Source: Planctomycetota bacterium (GTDB lineage: Bacteria > Planctomycetota > Planctomycetia > Planctomycetales > Planctomycetaceae). Taken from it: DNA of 64,000 nucleotides. Positions within the stretch are counted from its first letter, which is position 1. Every line of letters starts with the position of its first letter. This document shows, piece after piece, positions 28,603 to 58,995 of this stretch. Under the pieces are notes generated by a model. The model was given only the letters and a program-made list of their open reading frames with translations, searched no databases and was not told the origin of the DNA. Made by a program: the position numbers and the translations under genes. The DNA lies in assembly GCA_027618475.1 (NCBI GenBank), contig JAQCEJ010000011.1, forward strand, positions 26,234-90,233. Reading direction: 5' to 3'.

Positions 28603-29649
28603 ATGTCAAATCAGGACATCGGTCAGGCGGCGGTCGAAAAGCTGGCTAAAGCTCACTCTGAAATCCGCGATCAGGTTTCTCAGGTCATCGTCGGCCAGCA
28701 CGACGTGATCGAACATCTGCTCATTGCGATGTTCAGCCGAGGGCACTGTTTATTAGAAGGGGTACCCGGTCTCGCCAAGACGTTGATGGTCAGCACACTC
28801 GCGCGTTGTTTGTCGATGACATTCTCCCGGATTCAATTCACCCCCGACCTGATGCCCGCCGATATCACCGGTACCGATGTGCTACAAGAGAACCGCGAAA
28901 CGGGTAAGCGCGAATTTCGGTTTTTGTTGGGGCCGCTGTTTCACAATATTGTTCTCGCGGATGAAATCAACCGCACGCCGCCCAAAACACAGGCCGCTCT
29001 GCTTGAGGCGATGCAAGAACGGCAGGTCACGGTAGGTCAAAACCGGCATCAACTCTCCGATCCGTTTTTCGTCCTGGCGACTCAGAACCCGATCGAGCAA
29101 GAGGGAACTTACCCACTTCCTGAGGCGCAGCAGGACCGTTTCATGTTCAAAGTCTTTGTGAAGTATCCCTCGTTTGAAGAAGAACGTCAGATCGCCAAGC
29201 AAACGACGTCGTTGATGGTGGATGATATCAAGCCGGTTTTATCAGGTGACGAGATTCTGGAGTTGCAGAAGATCGTGCGGCAGGTTCCGGTCACAGATCA
29301 TGTTGTTGATTATGCATTGCTGCTGGTGCGTCAGACGCGCGTTTCGGAAAGCGGGACGCCTGATTTCATCAACGATTGGTTGAGTTGGGGGGCCGGCCCG
29401 CGTGCGGTCCAGTTTTTGCTTCTCGGAGGCAAAGCCCGGGCACTGCTCCACGGACGCACGTACGTTTCGACCGAAGATATCGCAGCCCTCGCGGCCCCCG
29501 TATTGAGGCACCGCGTCGTCACGAATTTTTCCGCCGAAAGCGAAGGGGTCACCCCCGATTCTGTTATTCAACGACTGCTGGCAGAAACTCCGTCTAAAGA
29601 AGGCGAGCTGACGCGTGACCCAAGATTACAGAAGATTTTTGCTGCCTGA
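28603..29649 (+). CDS. MoxR-family AAA+ ATPase
   Basis: 348 aa; [13 protein letters not shown] Walker [27 protein letters not shown] Walker B/pre-sensor, [25 protein letters not shown]. Confidence 0.95.
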
Positions 29650-30526
29650 AGAAATCTCGCGAATTGCCAAGCTCGAAGTTCGGGCACGCACCATCGTCGA
29701 GGGTTTTCTGTCGGGTCTGCATCGCAGCCCCTACTTCGGACAATCTGTCGAATTCGTGCAGCACCGAGAGTACACGCCGGGGGACGATTATCGCCGGATC
29801 GATTGGAAAGTCTGGTCGAAAACCGACAAATATTACATCAAGCAGTACGAAGAAGACACCAATCTGCGGACGACATTGTTGGTCGACGTCAGTGAGTCGA
29901 TGCAGTTTGGATCGGGGTCGCTTTCCAAGTACGAATATGCGTGCACGATTGCAGCCAGCCTGACGTATCTCTTGCTGCGGCAACAGGACGCCGTCGGTAT
30001 GGTCACGTTCGACGATCAGGTGCGCTCTCAGGTTCCGTTGCGAAGCAAACGCAATCACTTGCATGCGATTCTTTCGGCATTGGACTTCTCGAAGCCGCAG
30101 AAAAAGACGGACATGTACAGCATCATGGAGCAAACGGCAAAGGCACAGTCACGCCGCGGCATGATTGTGCTGATTTCCGATCTGTTTGCTCCTCGCGAAG
30201 GACTGTTTCGCGGATTGCGAATGTTGCGGCATCGGGGACACGACGTCTTAGTGTTTCACGTCCTTGACGATCAGGAACTCGACTTCAATTTCACCGGGAC
30301 GACAAAATTCGAAGGGATGGAAGAATCGGGTGAACTCGTGTGTGACCCCCGCTCGCTTCGTGACGGTTATCTCGAAGCGGTCAGGAAATATCTTGAAGAA
30401 GTGCGCCGGTATTGTGCGAATCATGTCATCGATTATCAGACGATTCGCACGAGCGAACATCTGGATGCGGCGCTCGCTCACTTTATGAATCATCGCATCG
30501 GCATGCGGAGTTCGGTCAGACAGTAA
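29615..30526 (+). CDS. DUF58 domain protein (VWA-like)
   Basis: 303 aa; [62 protein letters not shown]; overlaps moxR by 35 bp. Confidence 0.95.
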
Positions 30527-30568
30527 CGCCATCGCAAAAACCACAATAGGGCAAATCGGTAACCTCGT

Positions 30569-32908
30569 ATGGAATCGTGGCTGGCACAGTATTTTATTCA
30601 TCCCGCGATCGCGACAGGGGGGGCATTTCTGCTGTCCGCCCCGATTATCATTCATTTGATTAATCGGTTGCGATTCAAACGCGTTCGATTCGCTGCGATG
30701 GAATTTCTACTGCAAAGCGAACAGCGCAACCGGCGTCGGATTTTGATAGAGCAATTGTTGCTGCTGTTGATGCGGTTGTTGATCGTCGCCGGCATTGTGT
30801 CGCTCATTTCGCGGTTAATTCTTAATCCCGAACAGTTGTCGATATTTCAGGGGGCGAAAACCCATCACGTTGTGCTCCTCGATGACAGCGGATCGATGCG
30901 CGATCGTCTGGGCGAAACAACGGCATTTGATCTGGCCCGAAAGATGATTCAGCAGCTGATCACCGAAGGGGCACAACGACCGGAGACTCAGCAGTTTTCT
31001 CTGATACTCCTATCCGCTCCCGATGCCCCCGTCTTTGTGCAGCAGGATATTAACTCTGCCTTCGTCCAGGAATTTGAAACCCGGCTCGAAAATCTCGTAT
31101 GTTCGCATCAATCCCTCGATCTGGCCGATGGCATATCGGCCTGCCGTCAATTGCTGAGCGAAGACAAAGGCATGACCAAGAACGTACATATCCTCTCCGA
31201 CTTTCGCCAGCCCGATTGGCTTGACCAGAAAGCAACGACCAGTTCGCTCCAAGAACTGGATGACGCCGATGTCACGGTCAATCTGCTCAAGATCGTCCCC
31301 GAGCGCCACGCCAATCTCTCGATCACCGAATTAAGCGGAGCCCTGCAAATCGCAGCGGTCGGAATTCCTCTGCGGTTGAAAGTCGGCGTGAAGAACCACG
31401 GCGACAAAACTGTGCAAGATGTCGGCCTTTCCGTTTTGGCGGACGGCAGAAAGCTGCCATTGAGTATCGTTTTCGAAAAGCTCGAACCGGAATCGGAAGT
31501 CTCTCGTGAATTTGACGTCGTCTTTCCGACCGCCGGTGCCCATAAACTCCGCGTACAACTCGATGGTGACGCACTTGCTGAGGATAACGTCCGCTATCTC
31601 GCAATCGATGTTCATCAAACCAACCCGGTGCTGATTATCGATGGTAACGCGGTCGATGAAGAGTCGTTTTTCCTTACAACCGCATTATCTCCGGGGCCAC
31701 AGACGACAGGGTACTCGGTAACGATCGAAAGTCCCGATGCATTGCGGCGAATTCCGCTCGATGGATATCAAAGCATAATTATGATCAACGTATCGGAAAT
31801 TGCGCCCGATGCCGTCGCGCTTCTCGAAGATTATGTGCGCAATGGGGGGGGGCTGGGGTGGTTTCTTGGTGACGCCATCAAACCTCGGTTTTACAACGAC
31901 GTGCTGTGTTGGCCTGCGTCCGGCCTGTTTCCCGTTCGGATTGAGGCGGCGCCGCAGTTGTTGTCGCGCGATGAGTTATCGAACGAGCCGGACCTGGTAT
32001 TGACCGATAACCCGATTTTTTCGGTCTTTCGCGGACAGGACAATCCACTCATCGAGGGGGTCAATATCTACCGCTATTTCTCGACAATAAAGGTCGAGAC
32101 ACCTGTCGAAAATTCTGAAGATGTGGCGGCCGCCGATGAAAAAGCCCGTCCCGTTGTCGAAACCATCGCACGATTGCGGAACGGTGCCCCTTTGATGTTC
32201 GAACATCGCTTTGGCGCAGGACGAGTGGTGACAAGTCTGACTTCCGCCGGACCGTTACTGGGGAGCGACGACATCGAATGGAATGACTGGGCTCGCAATC
32301 CCAGTTACATCGTCGCCATGCTCGAACTGCAAAAGCGGATCGCCCGTTCGAATCGGCAATGGGAAATTCGCGATGTCGGCGAGCCGATCACCGTGACCGT
32401 CGATCCTGCTCTCTACAGCGACACGGTAGAAATCATTGGACCCGAAGCAACGGGACAACGTTTAACGCCCGTGCAGGCTTTGCCTCTCCTGACAGAACGT
32501 GATTCCTCCGAACCGGCATCATCGACACCGGTGATGTTGGAAACGCCGAGTTATGAGCAGACCGATATCCCTGGAATCTACGGCATTCGCCTGACAATGC
32601 ACGGACAGAACCCTGAAGAACAATTCATCGCCTATAACTTTCCCGAACATGAGAGCGAACTGGCACTGGCAAGTAGCGGAGAAATCCGGCAAATGCTGGG
32701 GGACGGTTCCCGAGTGCAGATTCACGAGCCGGGCGACTTTCAGTGGATTCAAGGAAAGGAGGCGGGGCAGGAAGTGCGAAATGCCATCCTGATTGCTTTA
32801 TTCGTGTTGCTGGCGGGAGAACAGCTTCTCGCTTGCAGACTGAGTTTTCATCCAACGGCAGGACGGCAGACTTCGACACACGCGGTGACGGGAAAGGTGG
32901 TAGCGTGA
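30569..32908 (+). CDS. BatA-like membrane protein with VWA domain
   Basis: 779 aa; N-terminal LLSAPIIIHLINRLRFKRVRFAAMEFLL (aerotolerance regulator N-terminal type), VLLDDSGSMRDRLG MIDAS. Confidence 0.87.
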   Translation: MESWLAQYFIHPAIATGGAFLLSAPIIIHLINRLRFKRVRFAAMEFLLQSEQRNRRRILIEQLLLLLMRLLIVAGIVSLISRLILNPEQLSIFQGAKTHHVVLLDDSGSMRDRLGETTAFDLARKMIQQLITEGAQRPETQQFSLILLSAPDAPVFVQQDINSAFVQEFETRLENLVCSHQSLDLADGISACRQLLSEDKGMTKNVHILSDFRQPDWLDQKATTSSLQELDDADVTVNLLKIVPERHANLSITELSGALQIAAVGIPLRLKVGVKNHGDKTVQDVGLSVLADGRKLPLSIVFEKLEPESEVSREFDVVFPTAGAHKLRVQLDGDALAEDNVRYLAIDVHQTNPVLIIDGNAVDEESFFLTTALSPGPQTTGYSVTIESPDALRRIPLDGYQSIIMINVSEIAPDAVALLEDYVRNGGGLGWFLGDAIKPRFYNDVLCWPASGLFPVRIEAAPQLLSRDELSNEPDLVLTDNPIFSVFRGQDNPLIEGVNIYRYFSTIKVETPVENSEDVAAADEKARPVVETIARLRNGAPLMFEHRFGAGRVVTSLTSAGPLLGSDDIEWNDWARNPSYIVAMLELQKRIARSNRQWEIRDVGEPITVTVDPALYSDTVEIIGPEATGQRLTPVQALPLLTERDSSEPASSTPVMLETPSYEQTDIPGIYGIRLTMHGQNPEEQFIAYNFPEHESELALASSGEIRQMLGDGSRVQIHEPGDFQWIQGKEAGQEVRNAILIALFVLLAGEQLLACRLSFHPTAGRQTSTHAVTGKVVA

Positions 32909-35436
32909 TGCACGACACTTTTCCACTCGCAATCGGATTTTTACAGTCATGTGCGTCGACGTTTCGTTCGTTAATGGTGCTCGCCGCCGAACCTCAGACC
33001 ACTGCCTACCGTTCGCTCGAATTCGACTGGCCCGAAACGACCGCTGAATGGTGGTTGTGGGGCGGGGGACTCGCTCTCGTGGCCGCGGTCATCTTCCGTA
33101 CCTATTTTCGCGATACGCGAGAACTCCATTCCTTCTGGAGAAGCTGGTTGATGGTCTTGCGGCTTGCAGCCCTTGTGGGGCTGATCGCCGTCGCGCTGAA
33201 TCCACACGAGCGGACGCAGAAGACCGCCTATCGCGAATCACGAGTTACGCTCGTTGTCGATACTTCGCTGTCGATGCGGCACGCAGCGACGGATGCCGAG
33301 GAGTCGGCGTCGGGAACTGCCGTCACCTCAGGTGCGGTCGAAGAGATCAGCCGCGCCGAAGCGATTCGTCAGGTGCTCGAGAGTTCTCCGCTGGTCGACC
33401 AATTGCGGCAGACACATCAAGTGACGCTCTATACGTTCGACCGGCAATTGACGGGACCGCATCATATCTTCCCCAGAAAAACAGCAAACGGCACAGAGGC
33501 TGCGACCCCGGCAGAAAATCTTGAAAAACCGGTTACCGTTGGTCAGGAAATTCCCGAAGATCGTGTCGATTACGTCAAATTGTTGGAACCCCGCGGCCTG
33601 GAAACACGTCTGGGAGAAGGCGTTCTCGATTTGGTTCGACAGATTGGAGGAAGCACGTTGTCCGGCGTCGTGATCTTTAGCGATGGTGTTTCGAATTCGG
33701 GGCTCGCTCCTTCCGCAGCACATGAGATGTTGCTTGAGAAGAAAATCCGACTGATCGCAATCGGGGTCGGCAGCACGGAGTCGCCCAGCAACATCCAGAT
33801 CGCTCGCATCGTCGCTCCGACGGACGTACAGCTTGGTGACGGATTCGAACTCACCGGCTATATACAAGCTCAAGGCCTCACAAACCAGACCATTACGGTT
33901 GAACTCTGGACTCAGGAAGAAGGGGAAGGAGAACCGGTTCTCGTCGATAAGCAGGATGTCGTTCTTCCTGATGAAGAAGAGACACCTGCTGAAGTCACGT
34001 TTTCCCGGACCCCCACGACCGCCGGTCGATTGCATCATTCGTTGAAAATTGTGGCGAACAACAAGGTTGTCGATGCCAATGCCGCCGACGATCAGCTCGA
34101 ACATACGGTTAATGTCTTCGATCGACCGCTTCGCGTTTTTCTGCTGGCAGGCGGACCGATGCGCGATTACCAGTTTGTCCGTAACATGTTGTTTCGTCAT
34201 CCTTCGATCGATGTCGACGTCCATTTGCAGACCGGTACCCCCGGTATGAGCCAGGATGCAAACGATATTCTCTTTGCGTTTCCCGATCGTTCGGAGCTTT
34301 TTGAATACGACGTCATCATTGCGTTTGATCCGCAATGGACCGTCCTCACCTCAGAACAGGTCGAATCGCTGGCGCAATGGGTTTCGCTGGAAGCGGGAGG
34401 CCTCATACTTGTCGCCGGTGACGTCAACACTCCGAGTCTTGCGGCGGCTTCGGGAGAATGGGAACCGCTGCGAGACCTGTATCCGGTCGGGTTATCACCT
34501 TTGGCGGCTGAGTTGCGTGATGATGATTCCATTCAACCACGCCGCATCGAATGGACGGATGCCGGACGTGAAGCCGGGTTCTTCCAGCTCACGGATGATC
34601 CGATCACATCAGCTGCGGTATGGGAACGATTTCCGGGCATGTTTCGCAGTTATCCGAGTCATGGGCAAAAAGCAGGAGCAACCATATATGCTTTATTCCC
34701 CGACCCGAGGCTGCAAACGGAATACGGGTTTCCGGTCCTGATGGCGTCGCAATTTTACGGGGAAGGACGCATTCTCTATTTCGGGAGCGCAGAATTCTGG
34801 CTGTTGCGATCAATCGACGAAGAATATTATGACCGACTGTGGATCAAATCGATTCGCGAAGTCGGGCAGGGACGGATGCGACGAGGAACCAAACGGGGGA
34901 CGTTGCTCGTCGAACGGCACGATTATGTTCTCGGCCAAACAGTTACCGTACGGGCTCGCGTTCTCGATCCGCAGTTTCAACCCCTGAAACAGGAATCCGT
35001 GACACTCGAAGTGTATGACCCGACCGGCAAACCGATGGTTCCGCCAAGGGTGCTCGCGGCGGAGATCAATCGTCCCGGCGAGTATTCCGGCAGTTTTCGT
35101 GTCGGACTTCCCGGTCGCTATCGACTTGAACTTGATATTCCCGACACCCAACAGACGGCCACTGCCGAAGTCGTTGCCATGTTGCCGCGACTTGAAGATG
35201 AAAATCTCGAACAGGATGTCAAAACGCTCAAAGATCTCGCCCAAGATACCGGCGGGCGATATTTACCGCTGAGTGATGCTGCGACGGCAATTCCCGCACT
35301 GCTTCCCGACAGCGGCGAAGAATATCTCGTTGACGAACGCCTCAAAACGCTATGGGATCGCAATTGGGTTCTGATGATTCTCGTTGGAGTTCTGATATTG
35401 GAATGGCTCTCGAGAAAACTGTTAAAACTGGCTTAG
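32908..35436 (+). CDS. VWA / glutamine-amidotransferase-like membrane protein
   Basis: Start overlaps upstream stop (ATGA at 32905-32910 region); VVDTSLSMRHA MIDAS, RVFLLAGGPMRDYQFVRNML segment, C-terminal TM. Confidence 0.8.
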   Translation: MHDTFPLAIGFLQSCASTFRSLMVLAAEPQTTAYRSLEFDWPETTAEWWLWGGGLALVAAVIFRTYFRDTRELHSFWRSWLMVLRLAALVGLIAVALNPHERTQKTAYRESRVTLVVDTSLSMRHAATDAEESASGTAVTSGAVEEISRAEAIRQVLESSPLVDQLRQTHQVTLYTFDRQLTGPHHIFPRKTANGTEAATPAENLEKPVTVGQEIPEDRVDYVKLLEPRGLETRLGEGVLDLVRQIGGSTLSGVVIFSDGVSNSGLAPSAAHEMLLEKKIRLIAIGVGSTESPSNIQIARIVAPTDVQLGDGFELTGYIQAQGLTNQTITVELWTQEEGEGEPVLVDKQDVVLPDEEETPAEVTFSRTPTTAGRLHHSLKIVANNKVVDANAADDQLEHTVNVFDRPLRVFLLAGGPMRDYQFVRNMLFRHPSIDVDVHLQTGTPGMSQDANDILFAFPDRSELFEYDVIIAFDPQWTVLTSEQVESLAQWVSLEAGGLILVAGDVNTPSLAAASGEWEPLRDLYPVGLSPLAAELRDDDSIQPRRIEWTDAGREAGFFQLTDDPITSAAVWERFPGMFRSYPSHGQKAGATIYALFPDPRLQTEYGFPVLMASQFYGEGRILYFGSAEFWLLRSIDEEYYDRLWIKSIREVGQGRMRRGTKRGTLLVERHDYVLGQTVTVRARVLDPQFQPLKQESVTLEVYDPTGKPMVPPRVLAAEINRPGEYSGSFRVGLPGRYRLELDIPDTQQTATAEVVAMLPRLEDENLEQDVKTLKDLAQDTGGRYLPLSDAATAIPALLPDSGEEYLVDERLKTLWDRNWVLMILVGVLILEWLSRKLLKLA

Positions 35437-35440
35437 TACG

Positions 35441-35463
35441 GGTTTCGTAACCCGGTTGGCGAC
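35441..35463 (+). repeat. Half copy of the dispersed element (arm A only)
   Basis: GGTTTCGTAACCCGGTTGGCGAC, 22/23 identical to 18289-18311. Confidence 0.7.
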
Positions 35464-35466
35464 GGA

Positions 35467-38031
35467 ATGATCTTCCTTCCGTGTGCGGTAAGCGGCTTGT
35501 CCCCCGCATGCAGAAGTCGTTTGGCGCAAAATGCGATAGGTATCGACATGACCATAACTCCTGACACGAATCAAACGACCTCAGAACGATCTGTCGTTAC
35601 ACGAATGAATCTTCCGGACGACATTCGCCAGTTACTTATCCGCTTGCGGTCGCAGATTCGCCGTTATCTGCTTTTGCAGGGTATCGCTTCGGTCATCATT
35701 GTGCTGGGATTGATGTTCTGGGGAATGCTGGTCCTCGATTGGGGGTATTTTCAAATCAGCCGGCTGGAATTGCCGCGTGGTTTTCGGATTGTATTGACGT
35801 TTGCCTCGATCTGCATTCTCGGTTTCTCGCTGTTTATGTGGGTGATCCTTCAGTATTTCCGACAATTGCGAAATAAGGCCCTCGTGCTGTTGCTCGAACG
35901 ACGATTTCCCGAACTCGACGATCGGCTCATAACGGCGATTGAAATGACCGCCAATGATGATGCGAGCGGCTCCTCCGGAACAACACCGTTGAGTGGCTGG
36001 CTGTTGCAGCGGACCGTTGCCGATGCCAATCGACTCGCTGCTTCTCTCGATGTGCAAAATGTTTTCACGAGTCGTCCGCTCAAACGCGCGCTCGCGTGTG
36101 CTGCCATTATGGTGATGTCGTTGGTCGCACTCGGTGTGATGAATCAGCAGGCGTTCGCACGCTGGGCCAGCGGATATTGGAAACTCGAAGATGAGTATTG
36201 GCCGCGCGAGACGCAATTGCGCGTTCGCGTCTTGGCGCAACCAGGCGATCGAGTTCGAGAATTTCAAGACGGCAGGGTCAAGCATCCCCGCGGCGGGGAT
36301 CTTGTTTTGGTGGTTGACGTCGTCGAATCGAAAACTCCGCCGGATCGCGTCCAGTTACGGTACCGAATGACGTCCGGCGGATCCACACGCGTCCTGATGA
36401 CACGCAGCGGTGAAGATCAGTTCAAACACACCATCAGCGGGTTAATCGACGACGTCGACGTCTGGGTTACCGGCGGTGATTACACCAATCGCCGGCCTTA
36501 TCACATCGAAATCGTCGATCCTCCGCGGATCGACAATTTGACGCTCCACTGCAGGTATCCGGACTATACCGGATTAAATGGTAACGATGAGCGTGACAAT
36601 AAGCTCGTGTTGGGTCCGCAGATTGCAATTCCGATGGAAACCGCATTTGATCTCGTTGCCGATACGAACAAGCCGTTGATCGGATTTTCTCTTCAAACCG
36701 ACCGCTGGGAACTGTCGTATCGTCGAAATGAATCGGCGAATTTCACACTGAAAAGTCCGGAAGGCGACATCGTGAAACGCATTCCTCTTGCTTCTGCCTT
36801 TCAGGCAACAATGCTCGCATCGAATGCCCGGCAGCTGCGCGTTCCTTTTTTCATGGGAGCGCAATCATCACTCAAGCTCGACGACCTCTACGGTGAGATC
36901 ACGGACGCTATACCGCTCCCTCCCGAGTCGAACGTTCGCATCGAACTGGTAGATGAAGACGACATCTACAGCAGCGAACCGGCCCGGTTGATGATTCAAG
37001 GAATTCTCGACGAACCCCCCATTATTGAAGCCGAACTCCGTGGTGTGGGAACATCGGTGACGCGGATGGCGCGCATTCCGATCGCCGGACTGATAATGGA
37101 TGATTACGGTCTGATGGATGCCCATTTTGAGTTTCTGGTCGATCAGGAGCAGGAATATCGAACGAGGTCGTTCCGGTCGTCTCCCGCTCCTGGAACGCTC
37201 GAATTTCGTCTGGGGCATGATTCTCCGGAACCGTGGGAACGTTTCGACGTATTGCCATTGGACCTCGCCGTCGGCCACGAATTGAGCGTGACGTTGACTG
37301 CTGTCGACGGAGACGACGTGAACGGACCGCACTCCAGCCGCAGTCAGATCTTTAAGTTCAAAATTGTCAGCCAGGAAGAGTTGATGTCGCTGCTGTATGC
37401 CAAAGAGTTGAATCTTCGACGACGTTTCGAACAGATTCATATCGAAGTGCAACAAACGAAGGCAGACCTGCAGCAGCACCGTATTCGAGCCATCGAACGG
37501 CAACAGCTCGCTTCACTTGCCGAAAAAACCGACGATCAGCGAAAGCTGATCGAAGAGATATCACTCGCACTCTCGGCATCGGCCGAAAGGGGATTACACG
37601 GTGCACGAAAGAACGCAACCGAGTCGGCATCAATCGAAGAAGCATTTCGCGATATCCGCGAAGAGTTGATCAATAATGGTGTCAATACACGACAGATTCT
37701 CGACCGGATCGACGACCGGATCCTATCTCCTCTTCACGTTATCAACACAATTGATTATCCTAACGTCGATGAAGCCATAGGTTTATACCGCCTGGCGAAC
37801 GAGCGGAGCACCGATCCCGTACCGCGCATCGACGAATCGTTGGTCGCCGTTGATGAACTGCTGGTACATATGGAGTCGGTACTGAACGAAATGCAAGACC
37901 TGCTGGAATATCACGAAGCTGTCGAACTTCTCAAGAAAATCATCCATCAACAGGAAGAACTCGTCGAAAAAACCAAGTCCGAACGGAAACGAAGTCTGCT
38001 GGAAGGCCTCAAATCGAAATCGGACAAATGA
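35467..38031 (+). CDS. Large membrane-anchored protein, DUF4175-like architecture
   Basis: 854 aa; two N-terminal TMs, extracytoplasmic region, C-terminal coiled coil. Probable start 35548 (MTITPDTNQ). Confidence 0.7.
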   Translation: MIFLPCAVSGLSPACRSRLAQNAIGIDMTITPDTNQTTSERSVVTRMNLPDDIRQLLIRLRSQIRRYLLLQGIASVIIVLGLMFWGMLVLDWGYFQISRLELPRGFRIVLTFASICILGFSLFMWVILQYFRQLRNKALVLLLERRFPELDDRLITAIEMTANDDASGSSGTTPLSGWLLQRTVADANRLAASLDVQNVFTSRPLKRALACAAIMVMSLVALGVMNQQAFARWASGYWKLEDEYWPRETQLRVRVLAQPGDRVREFQDGRVKHPRGGDLVLVVDVVESKTPPDRVQLRYRMTSGGSTRVLMTRSGEDQFKHTISGLIDDVDVWVTGGDYTNRRPYHIEIVDPPRIDNLTLHCRYPDYTGLNGNDERDNKLVLGPQIAIPMETAFDLVADTNKPLIGFSLQTDRWELSYRRNESANFTLKSPEGDIVKRIPLASAFQATMLASNARQLRVPFFMGAQSSLKLDDLYGEITDAIPLPPESNVRIELVDEDDIYSSEPARLMIQGILDEPPIIEAELRGVGTSVTRMARIPIAGLIMDDYGLMDAHFEFLVDQEQEYRTRSFRSSPAPGTLEFRLGHDSPEPWERFDVLPLDLAVGHELSVTLTAVDGDDVNGPHSSRSQIFKFKIVSQEELMSLLYAKELNLRRRFEQIHIEVQQTKADLQQHRIRAIERQQLASLAEKTDDQRKLIEEISLALSASAERGLHGARKNATESASIEEAFRDIREELINNGVNTRQILDRIDDRILSPLHVINTIDYPNVDEAIGLYRLANERSTDPVPRIDESLVAVDELLVHMESVLNEMQDLLEYHEAVELLKKIIHQQEELVEKTKSERKRSLLEGLKSKSDK

Positions 38032-38082
38032 CCGGAGTGCCGATTATTTTTGGCACGGCGTTTCCCAAAAGTGGATTGATTT

Positions 38083-38112
38083 TTCACATATTCGTCACTG
38101 ATTCGGTATAAT
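38083..38112 (+). promoter_or_regulatory. Sigma70-like promoter
   Basis: TTCACA (38083-38088), 18-bp spacer, TATAAT (38107-38112) in the intergenic gap upstream of the 38287 gene. Confidence 0.5.
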
Positions 38113-38286
38113 AAAATAGGTCGTTTATATTAATGCAATCGTGGTGTACAAGTCGTTTCAACACTTGGTTGAGAGCGGCTTTTCGGGACCAGTCTGGCGC
38201 ATATTCGATTATCTGCCGGGGTATGATGTTCGGGTTGATATTTCCGAAGCAGTAGCGAGTCGTGTTTAGTGAGCTGAGGAGTACAA

Positions 38287-40167
38287 ATGATGTCGGTATC
38301 GCATCGTCCGCGGTTGGGCCACTACCTTTCAGTCCTCGTCGCCACGGTCATCGCCATGATGGTGATTTCGTCTCCGGTACGTGTCTCGCTGTCGCAAGAC
38401 CGGGAGGCCGACGTTAACCGCCCGGCGGAGGGTTCTTCAGCCGACACGGCACCATCGAAGGAGAAAGACGATCCGCTTTCGACTCGACAAGACGCACTGG
38501 CCATCCAGTACGACCGTTTCGAGAAAACGCTTCAAGAACTCTCGGACTACATGAAATCGACAGATCCGGCGAGGGCCGATCTCTTGATACGTGCATTCGG
38601 ACAAAGCAAGAAAGACCAGGTAGCCTTGCAGATGCATGAACTGGTGCGTCTGCTGAATGATGAGCAGCTTGGCGATGCACTGGAACGACAGACTCAGCTT
38701 GTCGAACAACTACATGGTCTGCTGGGTCTGCTCCAAAGTGAAGATCGACTCAGCGAAATCGAAGAGGAAAAGAAACGCCTGCAGGATCTGCTCAAAGACG
38801 TCAACAAGATCATCAGTCAGGAAAAAGGGGTGCGCTCACGTACCGAACGTGGCGAAGAGATGAAAGGGCTCTCCGACAAGCAGAGAAAAGTCGCCGAGAA
38901 TGCGAAAGAACTGAGCGACAAAATCAGTGAACAGGATGCCGAGAAGAACCGCCGTGCATCCAACGGGCAGAAATCGTCTGAAGAAAGTGAAGACCCGTCC
39001 GAGAGTCGCGATGCGGAATCAGAAGATGGAGAGTCGAAAGACGCTAACGGTGAGAAATCGGACGGTGAGAAGTCCGATGACAAGGAGGGTGACGGGGATA
39101 AAAAAGACGATGGCGATAAAGATAAAAAGGATGACGGTAGCGAGGAAGGCGAATCTGAGTCGAAGGACGGCAAAGGAAAGCCCTCCGACAAAAATGGAGA
39201 ACCAAAAGAAGGCCAATCGTCAGAGGGTGAGCCGTCCGACAGCGAGCCGTCTGAGGGAGAACCCTCTGAAAGTCAGCCCTCTCAGGGTCAGCCGTCCAAA
39301 GGAAAGCCGGGTCAGTCACAGCCAAGCCCATCGCAGGACCAACAGCAACAACAAACTCCCGGACGTGAAGAAATCGAGCAGGCACGTCAGGAGATGGAAA
39401 AAGCGATTGAAGAACTCGAAAAGCAGGCTCGCGACAAAGCGTCCGGGCACCAGGATGAAGCATTGCGAAAACTGGCCGAGGCGAAAGCCAGACTCGAAGA
39501 AATTCTGCGTCAACTGCGAGAGGAAGAGCGTGAACTCGCACTGCGGGATCTCGAAGCCCGATTCCAACGAATGCTCGCCCTGCAAACCGCAGTTTACACC
39601 GGAACGGTCGCTCTGCACAAAAATGTCAGCGAAGAGCAATCCGCACGCCATCACACGCGATCGATCAAACTCGCTCGCGATGAAGATGCGATCATTCTTG
39701 AAGCCGAAAAAGCTCTGACGCTCCTCCGCGATGAAGGGACGTCCGTTGCCTTTCCAGAAGCGGTCGAACAGATTCGCGACGATATGTCGCTCGTCTCCCG
39801 CCGGCTGGGACGGGCGCAAACGGACGATCAGACCATTGGGTATGAAGAAGATATTATCGCCGCGCTGAAAGAAATGATCGAAGCCTTGCAGAACGAAATC
39901 GAAAAAGCGAAAGAGCAAAAGCAACAACAGCAACAGAACCAACAAAGTCAGCCCCAGGACAATTCACTTGTGGAAAAGATCGCCGAGATGAAAATGCTGC
40001 GGTCGTTACAACTACGCATCAATCGCCGTACAAAAGACCTCGGCAAACTCAGCCAGGAGGAGCAAGCCTCCGATCCCGACATCATCGATCAGCTCAGGCA
40101 ACTTTCGCGTCGCCAGGCTCGATTGCAACAAGCCACCCATGACATCGTCACAGGGAAAAACAAATGA
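38287..40167 (+). CDS. Secreted/anchored protein with long acidic low-complexity region and coiled coils
   Basis: 626 aa; N-terminal hydrophobic segment, repeated [43 protein letters not shown] tract, then Q-rich coiled coil. Confidence 0.75.
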
Positions 40168-41267
40168 AGAGTCGTCAGAATCCTGTTTCTCATCAGATCG
40201 TTGTCGGCTTTGTTGTTGCCGTAACTGTGTCGATCGCATCGTTCCCTCTGATCGGGGCGGACGGTAAAAAGGGGAGTGAGAAAGCTGCGTCTTTGGTGTA
40301 CTCGCCGATGACGCCGGTTCGATTACAGTCGGTGTTGACAGAGTGGGTTGCTCAACATTCGGCGATCTCGGATGAGACCCGTGAATCGCTCAACTTGGTC
40401 TGGCAGACGATCACGCCAGAGACTGCTCCACATGATCTGTTAGAGCGAACGCTCGACAGCTTTCGTCTCTTGGACCAGGCTGCTGTCGACTCGCTCAACA
40501 TTGCCAGCGTGGCGACGGTTATCGACACGAATGAATTATTCGCAACCGCGATTTCACCGGGGGCAGGAGACCCGTTCTACCAGGCCAATCTCAGGGCTGC
40601 GGTTGCCGAACGACTGGCGCAGCGACGGTTGTTTGAAGAAGCCCTTGAAATCATTGCTCCCGTCGACACCGCTCAACTGGTCGACCCGGCGGCATTTCTA
40701 TTCTATAAGGCGGTTTGCGAACATGCACTGTTGCTGCAGGAACCGGGGCTCAAAACACTCGATCTTCTGATCAATCATACCGAGGGGCTCCCCGTTCGTT
40801 TCGAAGTCCTTGCCAAACTCATGCAGGACGATCTCAAGCAGATCAAGCCAAAAACGCTCGGAGAGGTCGCCAGGCAGATGGACGATGTCGAACGCCGGCT
40901 TGAATTCGGACGATCGGGCAAGAAGGTGCAAAAAGTCGAAGACGACATCATTGCCACCCTTGATGAGATCATAAAAAAAATGGAGGAACAGCAGCAGCAA
41001 CAATCAGGGGGGGGGGGCTCCGGACAGGGAAACGGCCAGAACCAATCCTCGAATCCGGCACAAGACAGCATGATCAAAGGCTCGACAGCACCGGGCGAAA
41101 TCGATAAGAAGAATGTCAAAAAGTCGGGATCCTGGGGTGAACTCCCGCCGAAGCAAGAGACCGAAGCCAAGAACCTTATTAATCGAAACTTCCCCGCGAA
41201 CTATCGACAGGCGATCGAAGAGTACTTCAAGAAACTTGCCGGGCGGAAGGCTCCTTCCAATCGCTAA
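40164..41267 (+). CDS. Hypothetical secreted helical protein with Q/G-rich tract
   Basis: 367 aa; ATGA overlap with upstream gene; signal-like N-terminus; QQQQQSGGGGSGQGNGQNQ; C-terminal LINRNFPANYRQAIEEYFKKLAGR. Confidence 0.75.
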   Translation: MKSRQNPVSHQIVVGFVVAVTVSIASFPLIGADGKKGSEKAASLVYSPMTPVRLQSVLTEWVAQHSAISDETRESLNLVWQTITPETAPHDLLERTLDSFRLLDQAAVDSLNIASVATVIDTNELFATAISPGAGDPFYQANLRAAVAERLAQRRLFEEALEIIAPVDTAQLVDPAAFLFYKAVCEHALLLQEPGLKTLDLLINHTEGLPVRFEVLAKLMQDDLKQIKPKTLGEVARQMDDVERRLEFGRSGKKVQKVEDDIIATLDEIIKKMEEQQQQQSGGGGSGQGNGQNQSSNPAQDSMIKGSTAPGEIDKKNVKKSGSWGELPPKQETEAKNLINRNFPANYRQAIEEYFKKLAGRKAPSNR

Positions 41268-41312
41268 TTCTGTCGATGATGAACATGGCGCGAGATTCAT
41301 AGGAAGCCGGAT

Positions 41313-42476
41313 ATGCAATTCATCGGATCGATGATTCTCAGTTGGATTTTCGCCGCCGTTCCGGTCTCCGTCTCGCCGCTGGATGGCACTCCGCTTGCCG
41401 GTGAGTTTGTTTCCGGCACACGCGAGACATTACAGTTTAAGGTCGACGGCGAATCGCGATCGATGCCGACGAAAGATATCCTCGAAGTCAAAGTCACTGG
41501 CCCTGCTGAACCCGCGTCTGAAAAACTGGTCACCGAGATCGGACTGACGGATGGCAGTCATCTTGCCTTTTCAGCATTGCAGTCGTCACGCGAGGCGGTC
41601 ACTCTCGAAAACCCGGCGTTCGGTTCGCTGACATTTCCCTTAAAGTCGGTCGCCAGCCTGCGATTTGCCCCGCTTTCTGTGAAATTCACCGAGACCTGGA
41701 ATTCCCTCCGTGAACGGGATCTTCGCCAGGATTTACTGGTCCTCGAGAAAGATGACATTCTTGATTTCCATGAAGGGGTTATCTCGTCGATCGATGATCA
41801 GTCCATCGTCTTTTTACTTGATGGCGAAGATGTCACGCTTCCTCGTAATAAAGTCTTCGGAGTGATCTATTACCGCAAGACGACAACACCCCCGGCGAAA
41901 TTTTGCGATGTCCGCCTGCAAAACGGCGATCAGATCGCCGTTAAAGATCTGATCGCCGATGCCGAAATGGTGAATGTCATTCTCTCGTCCGGGGCGCAGG
42001 CCAATCTTCCCTGGACTGCGGTTCAAAGTCTGGATTACAGCCTCGGCAAAGTGTTGTATCTCTCTGCGATCGAACCGCGCGATGTGAAATATACGCCATT
42101 TTTCGACATCATCTGGGAATACACACGCGACAGAAACCTTGACGGACAAAAATTGCAATTGGGAAATACGGTCTACGAGCGCGGACTTTGCCTGCACTCC
42201 AGAACGGCAATTCGTTATCGCATTGGTAGAGACTATCGCCGTTTCCGTGCGGTGATGGGCATCGACCGCGGTGTCAGTCCTCTCGGTCACGTTCATGTTA
42301 CGATTCGTGGCGATGAAAAAATTCTGCTCGAAACCGTCGTTCGAGGAGATGATCCCCCGCGACCGCTTGATATCGATGTCACAGGGGTTCGCGATCTCGA
42401 AATCGTTGTTGATTTTGGGGAAGACCTCGACATCGCCGATCATCTCACGCTGGCCGATGCATTAATCATTAAGTGA
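41313..42476 (+). CDS. NPCBM/NEW2-type carbohydrate-binding domain protein
   Basis: 387 aa; NTVYERGLCLHSRTAIRYRIGRDYRRFRAVMGIDRGVSPLGHVHVTIRGDEKILLE. Confidence 0.82.
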   Translation: MQFIGSMILSWIFAAVPVSVSPLDGTPLAGEFVSGTRETLQFKVDGESRSMPTKDILEVKVTGPAEPASEKLVTEIGLTDGSHLAFSALQSSREAVTLENPAFGSLTFPLKSVASLRFAPLSVKFTETWNSLRERDLRQDLLVLEKDDILDFHEGVISSIDDQSIVFLLDGEDVTLPRNKVFGVIYYRKTTTPPAKFCDVRLQNGDQIAVKDLIADAEMVNVILSSGAQANLPWTAVQSLDYSLGKVLYLSAIEPRDVKYTPFFDIIWEYTRDRNLDGQKLQLGNTVYERGLCLHSRTAIRYRIGRDYRRFRAVMGIDRGVSPLGHVHVTIRGDEKILLETVVRGDDPPRPLDIDVTGVRDLEIVVDFGEDLDIADHLTLADALIIK

Positions 42477-42511
42477 CGACCCCGAATCTCATTCTTCGAA
42501 ATAGAGAATTT

Positions 42512-44302
42512 ATGAAAATCCAAGACTTGATTTTCTTCCTCGCCGCGGCTGTTGCCGTGTTAGAACCCTTGCGAGTGTTCGCGGTCGATCCCGCTGTCAA
42601 GGAAGCGGAAACGAAGCGTGTTGAGTTGTTGAGTTCCATTGCTCCTTCCGTTGTTGCCGTATTCGGTCAAACGGGGCAGGGGGGGGGATCGGGCGTGTTG
42701 ATTTCAGCCGACGGTTACGCGTTGTCGAACTTTCACGTCACTTCCAGCGTCGGTGATTTCATGCTTTGCGGCCTGAATGACGGAAACTTATATGACGCTG
42801 TCATCGTGGGAATCGATCCCACCGGAGATGTGGCACTGATAAAGCTTCTTGGTCGCGACGATTTTCCACATGCCGTGCTGGGTGACAGTGACGCGGTTCA
42901 AGTGGGCGATTGGGTTTACGTCATTGGTAATCCCTTTTTGCTGGCAACGGACTTTCATCCCACGGTCACATACGGCATCGTCAGCGGCGTACACAGGTAT
43001 CAGTACCCGGCAGGGACGTTCCTGGAATATGCCGACTGTCTTCAGGTCGACGCTTCAATCAACCCTGGTAATTCCGGAGGGCCACTCTTCAATGCGAATG
43101 GGGAACTCATAGGCATTAACGGTCGGGCGTCGTTTGAAAAGCGGGGCCGTGTGAACATTGGGGCGGGATACGCAATCTCAATCAATCAGATTAAACATTT
43201 TATGGATCATTTGCGCAGCGGCCGCATCGTCGACCATGCGACACTGGGTGCGGTCGTATCGTCTCGATCAGACGGGGCTGTTGTGGTCTCGAATATCATG
43301 GAAGAATCCGAAGCCTTTCGCCGCGGATTACTCGAGGGGGACGAAATCGTATCGTTTGCCGGCAGGTCCATTCGCAGTGTCAATCAGTTTAAGAATATCC
43401 TGGGGATTTATCCCAAGGGATGGAAACTTCCCCTCGTTTATCGCCGGGACGAAGAAAAACACGAAATCTACGTCCGTTTGCGGGCGCTGCATCAAGAAGC
43501 CGAACTGTTATCGCAAGGGGGGAATGCCCCCCCTCAACCGATGCCCGAACCCGATCCAGAAGAAAAACCGGAACAGGAGCAGGACGGCCAAGGTCCGAAA
43601 AAAGGAGAACCGCGAAGGCCGCAGATTCCGATTCCGGCTCATGGTGCTGCCGCTGCAAAAGTTCCAGAAAAATATCGTCACCTGCTGGTTAAGAAATCGG
43701 GATTTGCGAATTACTATTTCAATCAACTGGAGCAGACGCGAATTCTCGGATGGCTGGATTCGCTGGGCAATTATGCGAATGCCGAGGGGACATGGAATCT
43801 CACCGGGCGAACCGACCGCGATCAGGCGTTTGATCTCACCATGGCACCGCAAGGTGTCGGATTGGAATTGGGTGAGCAAGTCTTCGTACAAACATTGGAC
43901 GATGTACAGTTCAACGACGAACCCCCCGATACGGGAGGATTTCTTATTGCGCTTCATCAACTCAAACAGATGTTAGTCCGTCATGAGGAAGGTTTTGCTG
44001 AACTGTATTATCTCGGGAGTGAGCCGCTCGATGGTTTCGGCCCTCAGGTCGACGTTTTAGCGACGACATTCGAAGGTCTCGAATCGTTCTGGTACTTCCG
44101 CAAGTCGGATGGTCGGTTCGTTGGTTTCAATTCGAGTCTTGACGAACAGACTGACGATTGCGAAGTTCGTTTTTTGAGTTGGGAAAACTGGCAGGGACGT
44201 CAATTTCCCAAAGATTTTCAGGTTCGTACTGCCGCTCGTGACTTTGCCGTATTTCATGTTGAAAAGTTTGCGATAGCACCTCCGATCGCTCCCGCCGACT
44301 GA
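42512..44302 (+). CDS. HtrA-like trypsin-type serine protease with PDZ domain (catalytic triad intact)
   Basis: GSGVLISADGYALSNFHV, DPTGDVALIKL, VDASINPGNSGGPL; PDZ-like region and a C-terminal extension. Start at MKIQDLIFFLAAAVAV. Confidence 0.88.
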   Translation: MKIQDLIFFLAAAVAVLEPLRVFAVDPAVKEAETKRVELLSSIAPSVVAVFGQTGQGGGSGVLISADGYALSNFHVTSSVGDFMLCGLNDGNLYDAVIVGIDPTGDVALIKLLGRDDFPHAVLGDSDAVQVGDWVYVIGNPFLLATDFHPTVTYGIVSGVHRYQYPAGTFLEYADCLQVDASINPGNSGGPLFNANGELIGINGRASFEKRGRVNIGAGYAISINQIKHFMDHLRSGRIVDHATLGAVVSSRSDGAVVVSNIMEESEAFRRGLLEGDEIVSFAGRSIRSVNQFKNILGIYPKGWKLPLVYRRDEEKHEIYVRLRALHQEAELLSQGGNAPPQPMPEPDPEEKPEQEQDGQGPKKGEPRRPQIPIPAHGAAAAKVPEKYRHLLVKKSGFANYYFNQLEQTRILGWLDSLGNYANAEGTWNLTGRTDRDQAFDLTMAPQGVGLELGEQVFVQTLDDVQFNDEPPDTGGFLIALHQLKQMLVRHEEGFAELYYLGSEPLDGFGPQVDVLATTFEGLESFWYFRKSDGRFVGFNSSLDEQTDDCEVRFLSWENWQGRQFPKDFQVRTAARDFAVFHVEKFAIAPPIAPAD

Positions 44303-44356: not shown

Positions 44357-45451
44357 ATGAAAACAGAATTCCCCGCTCAGTATGTCGACTGTGAGCGACG
44401 AATAGCATCACGGCGTCTTTCACGGCTGGCGGCGTTCGTGATTGTTTGTGGGATGGTATTACAATATTCGGCCGAGTTATTTGCCGAATCGACACGTTCG
44501 ACTATCGATCATGTCTTGCCTCGAATGGTCAAGATTTTTGGATCCGGCAAAGGTTTCAAGGGTTTCTATGCCTATAGCACCGGCTTTCTGGTGAGTCCTG
44601 AAGGGCATATCGCGACGGTTTGGAGTTACGTGCTCGACAGCGACCAGGTTACCGTCGTACTCAACGATGGACGGCGATTTTCTGCATCGGTCGTAGGAGC
44701 CGAACCTCCCCTTGATCTGGCGGTCATCAAAATCGATTCTGAAGGGCTCCAACTTCCGTACTTCGATTTGAATGAGGTCGAGGAGGCCGATCTGGGAACT
44801 CGTGTGCTCGCTTTCAGCAATATGTTCAAGGTTGCAACTGGAGATGAACCGGTGTCTGTAATGCACGGTGTGATCGCAGCCAGAACAAATCTTTCGGCCC
44901 GTCGCGGACGTTTTCAGACACCCTATACCGGTCCTGTTTACATTCTCGATGCGGTTACGAATAATCCGGGTGCGGGAGGTGGCGTGATCGCATCCCGCAG
45001 TGGAAATCTGCTGGCGATGATCGGTAAGGAACTCAAAAATACCGACAGCAACACATGGTTGAATTATGCGGTGCCCATCACAGAGCTTCGCGTTTCGATC
45101 GATCAGATCATTACAGGCATATTTGACACTCCCGAATCCGAAGATCAAGAAATGTCGATCGCCGAAGAAATGTATCGTCCTGAGATGTGGGGAATGGTTC
45201 TTGTTCCCGACGTTGTCTTTCGCACACCGGCATATATCGATGCCGTTCGTCCCGGCACTCCGGCAGAAACGGCGGGGCTGCGGCCCGATGATTTAATTTT
45301 GTTTGTGAACGATAAGCTGGTTTCCTCCTGTCGGGCATTTCGCGAGGCGATTAATCGTCAGGAAGAAGGAGATACGATGAAAGTCGTCGTGCGCCGAGGC
45401 GATCAACTCATCGCCGTCGAGTTCTTCGTCCCTTCGCCGGAGGAGAGATGA
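44357..45451 (+). CDS. HtrA-like protein with degenerate protease domain + PDZ
   Basis: 364 aa; TGFLVSPEGHIATVWSYVL (His lost), PPLDLAVIKID (Asp kept), NNPGAGGGVI (Ser lost); PDZ RPGTPAETAGLRPDDLI. Confidence 0.8.
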   Translation: MKTEFPAQYVDCERRIASRRLSRLAAFVIVCGMVLQYSAELFAESTRSTIDHVLPRMVKIFGSGKGFKGFYAYSTGFLVSPEGHIATVWSYVLDSDQVTVVLNDGRRFSASVVGAEPPLDLAVIKIDSEGLQLPYFDLNEVEEADLGTRVLAFSNMFKVATGDEPVSVMHGVIAARTNLSARRGRFQTPYTGPVYILDAVTNNPGAGGGVIASRSGNLLAMIGKELKNTDSNTWLNYAVPITELRVSIDQIITGIFDTPESEDQEMSIAEEMYRPEMWGMVLVPDVVFRTPAYIDAVRPGTPAETAGLRPDDLILFVNDKLVSSCRAFREAINRQEEGDTMKVVVRRGDQLIAVEFFVPSPEER

Positions 45452-47481
45452 TGAGAATTGCTCACCCGATGATCATGCGATCGAAGTGCAGAATGTCTAT
45501 CGTGTCCGCGATGCTTATAGTGACGTCGGCATGGAATCTGTCAGCATCATTACATGCTCAGGATTTTGAGAGCGATCTCGAAGATATGGAGGAACGAGCG
45601 TTTCAAGCCGCTGCCGCGATGGCTCAGCCATCAATGGTTCGCATTGAAACGGTCGGGGGGATTGAAGTCGTCGATAACATTCTGACGCCGACAGGGCCGA
45701 CGACCGGTGTCGTTGCTTCCGCCGATGGTTATGTGCTCTCCAGTGCTTTCAATTTCATCTCCAAACCGGCGTCCATTGTTGTTACCACCTACGAAGGACG
45801 CAAATTCCCGGCGCGACTGATTGCCAACGATCACCTTCGGATGTTGTCGTTATTAAAAATTGAAGCCCAGGGTTTGATTCCGCTTACACCGGCTGATGAA
45901 GTTTCATTTCGACCGGGACGCTGGGCCATTGCACTCGGATGGACTTACGATGCTGAAAGCCCCAATCTTTCGGTCGGCATCATCAGTGCCGTCCGCCGTG
46001 TCTGGGGAAAAGCCATTCAGACTGACGCAAAAATTTCTCCGGTCAATTATGGTGGTCCGCTTGTCGATTTGGCCGGGCATGCCTTGGGGATTCTCGTTCC
46101 TTTATCGCCCGAAGGAAATTCCGCAACGAGCGGTGTGGAATGGTACGATTCAGGAATCGGGTTTGCCATACCGATTCGTGATGCACTCGATGCTGCCAAC
46201 CGGATGAAAGCCGGAGCGGATTTGCATGTCGGGCTCATGGGAATTTCATTTTCGCGTGACGGCGGAGTCGCAGGGAAACCCGAAATCGATCGCGTACAAT
46301 ATGGCTCCCCGGCCCAACAGGCGGGACTGATAGAACATGACCTCATCACTGCCATCGAGGATGTGGCCGTACAACGAATCGCAGATGTACGTCAACAGTT
46401 GGGAACAAAGTATGCCGACGATGAAATCGCAATTGCAGTTCGCCGAGGCGACCAATCGTTGACAGTGAAGGTGCATCTTGTCGCCGAACTTTTGCCGTAC
46501 GAATCGGGTTATCTGGGAATTCTGCCATTGCAGGCGACTGTGAATGATGCCGGTGTATCGATCCGTTATGTCTTTCCGGAAAGTCCTGCAAGTCAAGCGG
46601 GACTCGAACGACGGGACCGCATCGTTCAATTTCAGGATCAACCGGTTAAGGACTTTTCACAGTTGCAAGACCTGGTAAGTCGCACCCTGCCTAATGATAA
46701 GATCACACTGACGATCGTACGCGAGAAGAAGAACATCAAATTCGAACTTCAATTGGCGAGCATTCCGAATGAGTTTCCGCCGGTTGATCTGCCGACGCGT
46801 ACTTCCCTCGCATCTGTTATCGAAAAGAAGACACCGAAAGACGAGAACGTGGCAGCGGTCGAGCCGACGGGGCGTTTGAACGAAACGCTTCCGGGGCGTG
46901 AAGATAGCTACTGGGCGTATATCCCTGGAGATTATGATCCTCGCGATTCCTACGGTCTTGTCGTCTGGATCCATCCGCAAGGAGACACACACGAAGCGAT
47001 TTTTCTTGAACGCTGCAAGTCAATTTGCGACACGCGCCGGTTGATTTTGCTCGGCCCGAAATCTGAACGTGTCGAATGGTCTCCGGAGCACGTCGATTTC
47101 GTGAAAGAGGCGATCGACGAGATCACACGCAGGTACAACGTCGATCCTTATCGTAAAGTCATTTTGAGTTACCGTGGAGCAGGTGGCTTCGCACAGTTTC
47201 TTGTGAATAAAGAGCAATCGCTCTTCGCTGGTGTAGCGATGTGGGAGTCTCCGTTATTGATCCCCCCTCCCGATCACGAGCCCGACCATCACTGGCAATG
47301 GTACTTGGGATGCCACGCTGAATATCCCATGCGGACCGCAATCGAGAAGTCGACCGAGAAACTGCGTGAGATGAAGTATCCAGCGGCACTCTCCATTTGG
47401 TCCGGCAACGCTGACGAGTTTCCACTCCAGGACAATGTCGAAGAACTCGCCCGCTGGATCGATGCTCTTGACCGTTTGTAA
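45448..47481 (+). CDS. HtrA-like pseudo-protease with two PDZ-like domains and C-terminal alpha/beta-hydrolase-like domain
   Basis: 677 aa; GVVASADGYVLSSAFNFI, ISPVNYGGPL (triad absent); PDZ SPAQQAGLIEHDLI and SPASQAGLERRDRI; C-terminal YWAYIPGDYDPRDSYGLVVWIHPQG. Confidence 0.78.
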   Translation: MMRIAHPMIMRSKCRMSIVSAMLIVTSAWNLSASLHAQDFESDLEDMEERAFQAAAAMAQPSMVRIETVGGIEVVDNILTPTGPTTGVVASADGYVLSSAFNFISKPASIVVTTYEGRKFPARLIANDHLRMLSLLKIEAQGLIPLTPADEVSFRPGRWAIALGWTYDAESPNLSVGIISAVRRVWGKAIQTDAKISPVNYGGPLVDLAGHALGILVPLSPEGNSATSGVEWYDSGIGFAIPIRDALDAANRMKAGADLHVGLMGISFSRDGGVAGKPEIDRVQYGSPAQQAGLIEHDLITAIEDVAVQRIADVRQQLGTKYADDEIAIAVRRGDQSLTVKVHLVAELLPYESGYLGILPLQATVNDAGVSIRYVFPESPASQAGLERRDRIVQFQDQPVKDFSQLQDLVSRTLPNDKITLTIVREKKNIKFELQLASIPNEFPPVDLPTRTSLASVIEKKTPKDENVAAVEPTGRLNETLPGREDSYWAYIPGDYDPRDSYGLVVWIHPQGDTHEAIFLERCKSICDTRRLILLGPKSERVEWSPEHVDFVKEAIDEITRRYNVDPYRKVILSYRGAGGFAQFLVNKEQSLFAGVAMWESPLLIPPPDHEPDHHWQWYLGCHAEYPMRTAIEKSTEKLREMKYPAALSIWSGNADEFPLQDNVEELARWIDALDRL

Positions 47482-58400: not shown

Positions 58401-58995
58401 GACGGGCTGCCGCTCCTTCGGCAAAACGGTCGGGAATCGCTTCACGTCCTTCACCGCGGTACGTCACGTTTTGTATGACAGCCTCTCGCAGATTTAACGG
58501 GACGCGAACGGGTTCATCGACGGTCAGTTGTAACGTGACAATAATTTTCAGCGAGGCGTGTTCATCGTTTGCCGAACCAGAGATTTTCAGAGATGTAATA
58601 CCGAATGCGGGTTGTGTTTCAACATTCGTTCCGCCATTCGTTTTCAGCCAGTTCAAAAACTCATTTAATTTTGTCGACACCAATATCTTGATATATCGCC
58701 CATCGGCACCCGGAATGTACACGATGTCTGAATTGACATCGGAAAGCATGGCTGGATCGGGGAGGGCATCATCGTTCAACTGTGGTGGAGTCGCATCGGG
58801 CTTTCGCGTGGAAACATTCGGCGGAGCCTTTGTCGTCTCAGCTTTCGGAGTCTCCTGCGCGATGGATGCTGAGATCAGCGATGCCAACACCAAACAGGCG
58901 TTGATCGCGCTCAATACGGCGTTTCGGATTCCGTTCGATCTTATGCTCTGCAAACGATACATTTCGTTTCCGACACGGTTGAATTGCGAAATCAC
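55468..58995 (-). CDS. Large (1175 aa) secreted/membrane-anchored protein
   Basis: Signal-like N-terminus (MYRLQSIRSNGIRNAVLSAINACLVLASLISASIAQ, probable start 58962), C-terminal TM helices. Confidence 0.83.
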   Translation of the reverse strand: MISQFNRVGNEMYRLQSIRSNGIRNAVLSAINACLVLASLISASIAQETPKAETTKAPPNVSTRKPDATPPQLNDDALPDPAMLSDVNSDIVYIPGADGRYIKILVSTKLNEFLNWLKTNGGTNVETQPAFGITSLKISGSANDEHASLKIIVTLQLTVDEPVRVPLNLREAVIQNVTYRGEGREAIPDRFAEGAAARQAGYVWWFQGKGTHELELDVLVPVVTQSPTRRMQLTLPNTAVGSMVLAVPFDRFQVKLPEDSTSLVKTNFRDETNASRIELVGLDSRLDISWQPAPETQPVDLVLQSAFSPIDLDFTGETVLLSATQKVGALQGTFDNFTVTLPPDFKPLDVEGPSYRKREFVENDESRVTISLKEPTKGPIEIKWTLEAPFPSKGIPFAVEGFQVEHAQRQTGEIQIRSPDGYRIHRREGEDRFIHRINVSDSGVVDRVSSAYRFLKQPFRLVLDVQKEEPYYSVTPELLAHVTEGHIDLMCRFRFQVFRGAVSNVVIRWPLAVNEGWAIDPVQTPGLIESVTMTEEETGDGASSESRWQLKFVAPKSGDFEITLNARRPIQSDGSRLPCHLPMAEASSSAPTILAWILAENVESDLKPIGTTTLRPVPTTLAARVNVPAEWMSLRQFLWRIDSAEQVLEAGVKKYAQRIEAESDIEATIGEKEIKVRQRLDYDVSYERVSVLRMTVSSDLVPRPKFYLDEKPISTVWNEEGNTTVVSARLELPEPRLKHFEVVAEYSVPIPLTTEDEEKAEIQLPIVQSSDAAFKSTRILFQQQSLWEVDVSDQGWQSEVATEDALVYRSTKPQAYVPLTIREYLGERQRTLTISRAVIRTQFVPDGQTMTRAQYRIQGSGREIGIALPMELELVNAYINQNTIVLDGTEVTAEQTINYRIPLTGNIDLSKSGSVILTMDIRSKSVANFDWLDRQKIVLPEVVDELLIQQTIFEVILPGGQHLADNPNGLLPQFSWQLTLHGGMRRPLRDWSNPDDWIGSTNDVPPPLDGFDAGNGYVFSRFGAIESVTIHTLHRSLLVLFGAGLSLLASAVWLNVARVRHPYSMVVMVLIASLVGIWHESIVILLLQPFFGGLLLAFLAFAIDRRYRRETAPAVVTLGSTNEYMVPISSAFRSIPDQPSASAIKSIDRQVGSEDPTTLRPAHSGSPRDSVSVAE

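Follow-up and report, generated by a model that had tools for sequence, protein, structure and literature searches.

Three tandem genes on the forward strand of a planctomycete genome, within a stretch of 64,000 nucleotides that we analysed as a whole (the window), encode HtrA-type proteins, here called H1, H2 and H3. Judged by its residues, H1 is the only protease of this trio, and H2 and H3 are predicted pseudoproteases, i.e. proteins in which the HtrA fold is kept and the catalytic residues are lost, while the sequence remains constrained. We favour, with a probability of about 0.6, the reading that the three act as one periplasmic functional unit, in which H1 alone cuts and H2 and H3 take part as dedicated HtrA subunits without catalytic function. 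The preliminary description of this DNA had proposed that an active protease is accompanied by two pseudo-proteases acting as adaptors or regulators, and that proposal is supported by the fixed loss of the catalytic residues, the conservation of their substitutes, the joint retention of the genes and fusions between H1 and H2.

The three genes and the intact protease

H1 (42473..44302, + strand, 609 aa) combines a Trypsin_2 domain, a PDZ domain and a conserved C-terminal domain, H2 (44357..45451, +, 364 aa) has a degenerate Trypsin_2 domain and one PDZ domain, and H3 (45448..47481, +, 677 aa) has a degenerate Trypsin_2 domain, two PDZ domains and an alpha/beta-hydrolase-like domain; the ATG of H3 overlaps the stop codon of H2 by 4 bases (ATGA). 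These open reading frames lie where they had been placed before, except that H1 starts at a GTG at 42473 rather than at 42512, the first in-frame ATG, which had been used before. The Pfam model Trypsin_2 (PF13365) matches H1, H2 and H3 with 107.7, 63.6 and 65.3 bits, respectively (cut-off 27.6), and PDZ models match H1 and H2 once each and H3 twice, in agreement with the earlier remark that PDZ-like segments remain. By eye, H1 and H3 carry signal sequences and H2 a signal sequence or transmembrane segment, and thus the periplasm would be the compartment common to all three. The host genome, whose relatives are Planctomycetota, measures 5.93 Mb and has 14 Trypsin_2 matches.

H1 has what is expected of an HtrA/Do trypsin domain (42686..43117, +; PF13365 at aa 72-215), namely His-Asp-Ser plus a GNSGG loop. 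Its triad had been described as intact, and alignment to the DegQ and DegP structures in the PDB places it at H88 (42734-42736), D119 (42827-42829) and S201 (43073-43075), all on the + strand and all invariant in orthologues. Among the rows that cover each column we counted His in 110/110, Asp in 110/110 and Ser in 111/111; the full triad is present in 110 of the 112 H1 rows, the remaining two being truncated, and hence in all 110 rows that span the three positions. The PDZ domain (43241..43477, +; PF13180 at aa 257-335) scores 27.3 bits, cut-off 27. At 218 bits H1 stays below the cut-off of the NCBIfam model TIGR02037 (416.2), and we assign it, from these profile scores, to a related HtrA subfamily rather than to the plain DegP orthologues. 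The C-terminal region (43505..44299, +) resembles DUF4292 (LolA-like) weakly, with a Pfam match in 6 of 22 members, and a profile search of the PDB gave no match to it. This domain occurs in 140 of 199 genomes of the class, as a single copy in each apart from a few split matches, and in one copy in nearly all genomes that bear the trio.

Loss of the catalytic sites in H2 and H3

Orthologues were gathered from genome searches and related-locus searches and then aligned (112 rows for H1, 113 for H2 and 153 for H3). Both H2 and H3 have an HtrA fold, by their Trypsin_2 and PDZ matches as well as by their AlphaFold models (pLDDT 87.1 and 85.7), the best PDB matches of which are DegQ, DegP and DegS. 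The His-Asp-Ser triad, in contrast, is found in 0/113 H2 rows and 0/153 H3 rows. Since the triad is never present and the substitute letters are conserved across orthologues, the substitutions must be regarded as fixed. Structure prediction and orthologue conservation, two of the checks that had been proposed, both agree with the preliminary reading of these domains. A recent decay or an assembly artefact is ruled out, as the pattern is fixed in more than 100 genomes.

In the degenerate trypsin domain of H2 (44579..45019, +) His is replaced by S90 (44624-44626) and Ser by G207 (44975-44977), and D120 (44714-44716) is in place. Accordingly, the loss of His and Ser that had been reported is borne out, whereas the reported retention of Asp holds for this protein and not for the family: its column has D 51, E 45 and A 11 in 113 rows. 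The His column has S 94, N 18 and G 1, never H, and the Ser column A 87, G 18 and H 3, never S. The pseudo-active loop TNNPGxxGG is nearly invariant and belongs to the most conserved parts of the protein. A single PDZ domain follows (45161..45418, +; Pfam).

H3 has lost all three residues, as had been noted: in its degenerate trypsin domain (45703..46092, +) the PDB alignment to DegQ and DegP puts N102 (45751-45753), M132 (45841-45843) and Y201 (46048-46050) at the positions of His, Asp and Ser. Over 153 rows, the His column has N 129 and H 3, the Asp column M 97, L 12 and D 1, and the Ser column Y in all rows except one (152/153). The motif SPxNYGG is a signature of H3, invariant across a 55-sequence alignment and among the most conserved parts of the protein. 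Two PDZ domains, at 46231..46476 and 46531..46755 (+), are recognised by Pfam and in the AlphaFold model. The last ~200 residues (aa 475-677; domain at 46870..47478, +) match the esterase LC-Est1C (3wyd) by profile with an E-value of 1.3e-12, and several Pfam abhydrolase models too, which argues for a relationship in fold. The nucleophile of the GxSxG type is missing, its position being R576 (47173-47175), and the tail looks non-catalytic in most orthologues because Ser is found there in only 8/148. H3 would then be a doubly dead enzyme in most orthologues, with both the protease site and the hydrolase nucleophile gone. The H3 proteins of other classes are mostly shorter, seemingly without the hydrolase-like domain. 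This tail without a nucleophile, the conserved C-terminal domain of H1, the family-wide variability of the H2 Asp and the spread of the trio through the phylum all go beyond the preliminary description.

The same genome (G000) contains a second pseudo-HtrA, on contig C154 (5056-6243; locus L203), which adjoins an intact trypsin-PDZ gene with a GDSGG motif (3896-5215). By eye, its trypsin fold encloses a PDZ domain, and Cys stands in place of the catalytic Ser (PENCGGP). Relatives occur in 45 of 79 genomes of the class, and a CGG[PV] loop (HDxVLxPxxCGGP type) is present in 19 of 20 related loci that were fetched.

The trio is kept and lost as a set, and H1 is fused with H2 in some genomes

Using a presence threshold of E <= 1e-38 in 199 genomes of the class, we found both H2 and H3 in 148 and neither in 50, with a single discordant genome (G191, an assembly of 300 contigs), which has H1 and H2 without H3. 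The C-terminal domain of H1 tracks the presence of H2 and H3. Of the 50 genomes without the trio, 45 belong to one family (f2), and in the four genomes of this family that were read, the operon part from MoxR to NPCBM is retained and the trio is gone. Scattered genes are retained as well: two genomes (G137 and G021) have H1, H2 and H3 at widely separated places of a single chromosome, with none of the three missing, and the trio also persists in scattered form in others. Where a locus holds all three genes, the order is H1-H2-H3 on one strand in 117/117 cases, and this order also holds in other classes of the phylum.

In four genomes of other classes (loci L215, L219, L222 and L228, from families f51, f98, f98 and f55) H1 and H2 form one continuous frame, with the trypsin, PDZ and C-terminal parts of H1 followed by the trypsin and PDZ domains of H2. 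L225, a sister of L228, is unfused, so that fusion or fission must have happened more than once. The fused H2 domain of L222 has a His at the first triad position and lacks the other two residues. Such fusions point to physical association of H1 and H2.

The trio is preceded, on the same strand, by an operon that is kept upstream of it in other genomes. Directly upstream, overlapping the GTG start of H1, is a gene with an NPCBM/NEW2 domain (41313..42476, +), which adjoins H1 in 108 of the 117 loci. Before it come a conserved operon gene with a weak DUF4175 C-terminal match (40164..41267, +), a conserved operon gene encoding a helical protein rich in Glu, Ser, Lys and Gln (38287..40167, +), a gene that is labelled DUF4175-like from its position and neighbours, having no Pfam match of its own (35467..38031, +), and the upstream part of the operon (28603..35436, +), which consists of genes for a MoxR ATPase (28603-29649, +), a DUF58 protein (29615-30526, +) and a BatA/VWA protein (30569-32908, +), and an MG2-like open reading frame (32743-35436, +). 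Of the 20 regions read, 18 have the run from MoxR-DUF58-BatA/VWA through DUF4175 ahead of the trio, one shows a part of it and one shows none. The MoxR-DUF58-BatA/VWA-DUF4175-NPCBM operon (28603-42476 in the window) is conserved in several classes and kept where the trio is lost. Directly downstream of the trio, on the - strand, are two very large open reading frames (48467-55471, 2334 aa, and 55468-58995, 1175 aa), which adjoin the trio in some relatives too (e.g. loci L054 and L062); the 2334-aa frame has no Pfam or NCBIfam match.

Age of the trio

A tree was built from 73 trypsin domains; it is unrooted and weak in its deeper branching. In it H1, H2 and H3 are each set apart from all other sequences by a single branch (SH-aLRT 98, 100 and 98, respectively), and each of these clades includes sequences from other classes. 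Because every paralogue clade does so, the trio and its lost sites must be older than the classes sampled. On this phylogenetic evidence, the loss of the catalytic sites in H2 and H3 is predicted to have been fixed early in Planctomycetota, before the classes split. A more distant cluster of three HtrA genes (locus L227 in genome G376, 7289-10911) consists of an intact copy and two degenerate ones, arranged in reversed order, and its H3-like copy also has Asn in place of His. This cluster may represent an earlier state of the trio.

Proposed function and alternative explanations

The strict retention as a set, the conserved pseudo-sites and the fusion of H1 with H2 lead us to view the three proteins as subunits of one machine, probably joined in one complex. 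H1 would cut and H2 and H3 would not; their pseudoprotease and PDZ domains would associate with H1 much as ordinary HtrA protomers associate, and would control its substrate access and switching. The PDZ domains of H2 and H3 could serve as extra sensors of substrates or signals, and the hydrolase-like domain of H3 as a binding module. The HtrA proteases are models for protomers that activate one another within a trimer, and since HtrA protomers communicate across the trimer, a heterotrimer or 1:1:1 stoichiometry, with allosteric regulation of H1 in the periplasm, would be an attractive arrangement. Whether in such an arrangement or otherwise, H2 and H3 may act as adaptors or allosteric regulators, be structural subunits, or bind something else. 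The MoxR/BatA operon may link the trio to quality control of the cell envelope. A more specific model, in which H1:H2:H3 form an obligate asymmetric assembly, a single complex whose genes form the final module of a MoxR/DUF58/BatA operon found across the phylum and which has the dead subunits as its built-in allosteric sensors, is tentative, and we would give it clearly less credence than the functional unit as such.

Joint retention and fusion indicate a shared task, not necessarily contact between protease domains, as the case of MamO and MamE (see below) illustrates, and HtrA proteins are known mainly as homotrimers. A mapping of the aromatic residues of the human HtrA trimer interface onto H1-H3 offers little guidance, as the N-terminal segment concerned varies even among bacterial HtrAs. 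One may consider that H2 and H3 are stand-alone binders of peptides, cell-wall parts, metals or other ligands, working in the pathway of H1 without forming a complex with it. Such a role has a precedent in MamO, would suit the highly conserved SPxNYGG pocket of H3 and its acquired esterase-like domain, and sits well with the scattering of the trio genes in some genomes. On the other hand, the fusions in four genomes of several families, the fixed gene order and the joint loss speak against independent action, a TauE domain like that of MamO is missing, and the protease and PDZ part of H3 (aa 40-445) has no His column reaching 70% in the orthologue alignment. We therefore consider this explanation unlikely, although it is the most serious competitor of the single functional unit.

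It is quite improbable that H2 or H3 is still hydrolytic through other residues, be it a shifted triad, Tyr/Asp chemistry or the tail of H3. H84, the sole conserved His of H2 (84%), the invariant D193, D234 and Y201 of H3 and the esterase fold of its tail could be taken as hints in this direction. However, the nucleophile loop of H2 is without any Ser in the orthologue alignment, the oxyanion Gly, retained in 113/113 H2 rows, is gone from H3, and the scarcity of Ser at the nucleophile position of the tail and the missing His column of H3 have been described above. A triad elsewhere in these domains, the finding that was to overturn the preliminary description, was looked for, and no displaced Ser/His/Asp was in sight: with no conserved His in H3 and H84 alone in H2, a displaced triad is rejected for H3 and very unlikely for H2. 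Finally, that H2 and H3 are merely paralogues degenerating towards loss, as the missing triad residues and the absence of the entire trio from one family might suggest, is hardly credible given whole-protein identities of roughly 36-56%, frames that stay open across many families, invariant substitute residues and three clades that predate the classes.

If the asymmetric trio exists as proposed, it would be the first HtrA, as far as we could find, in which three specialised paralogues take the place of a symmetric trimer. Sensing and cutting would be separated by gene, one paralogue being catalytic and the other two permanently silent, and the roles could be told apart by single deletions. The trio is old and widespread, occurring in 148 of the 199 sampled genomes of its class and in several other classes of a phylum with an unusual and little understood envelope, and the MoxR/DUF58/BatA operon would gain a concrete candidate for a proteolytic output.

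Comparison with known systems

Within the literature collection searched, we found no paper on a planctomycete HtrA pseudoprotease trio and nothing relevant on the MoxR/DUF58/DUF4175 operon together with proteases. In fold and in the order of trypsin and PDZ domains the trio resembles DegP, DegQ and DegS, of which H1 would be an ordinary relative by its triad and PDZ domain; those proteins, however, are mostly homo-oligomers in which all protomers are catalytic, whereas H2 and H3 lack the site.

The Csp proteins have the subtilisin fold, act in spore germination and are unrelated to the trio in sequence, yet they come closest to it in layout. In Clostridioides difficile the CspB protease works with the pseudoproteases CspA and CspC, CspBA being made as a fusion (PMC6464247), so that both systems combine one protease with two pseudoproteases and include a fusion of the protease to one of them. 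That HtrA hetero-oligomers exist is known from Deg5/Deg8 of Arabidopsis, a 1:1 assembly built of homotrimers and, according to a review, the only known hetero-oligomer (PMC4877387); in contrast to the trio, it has two components, which are described as proteases rather than pseudoproteases.

Closest both in sequence and in idea are MamE and MamO, in which the gene of an active HtrA is accompanied by that of an inactive relative. MamO is a metal-binding pseudo-HtrA that has no triad of its own and is required for MamE activity, with no interaction detected between the two (PMC4794232). Membership of the MamO family is rejected (NF040961 gives scores of 30-62 bits where its cut-off is 800, and there is no TauE match), and the trio differs from MamE/MamO in having two pseudoproteases instead of one, with other substitutions, no TauE and no magnetosome genes seen.
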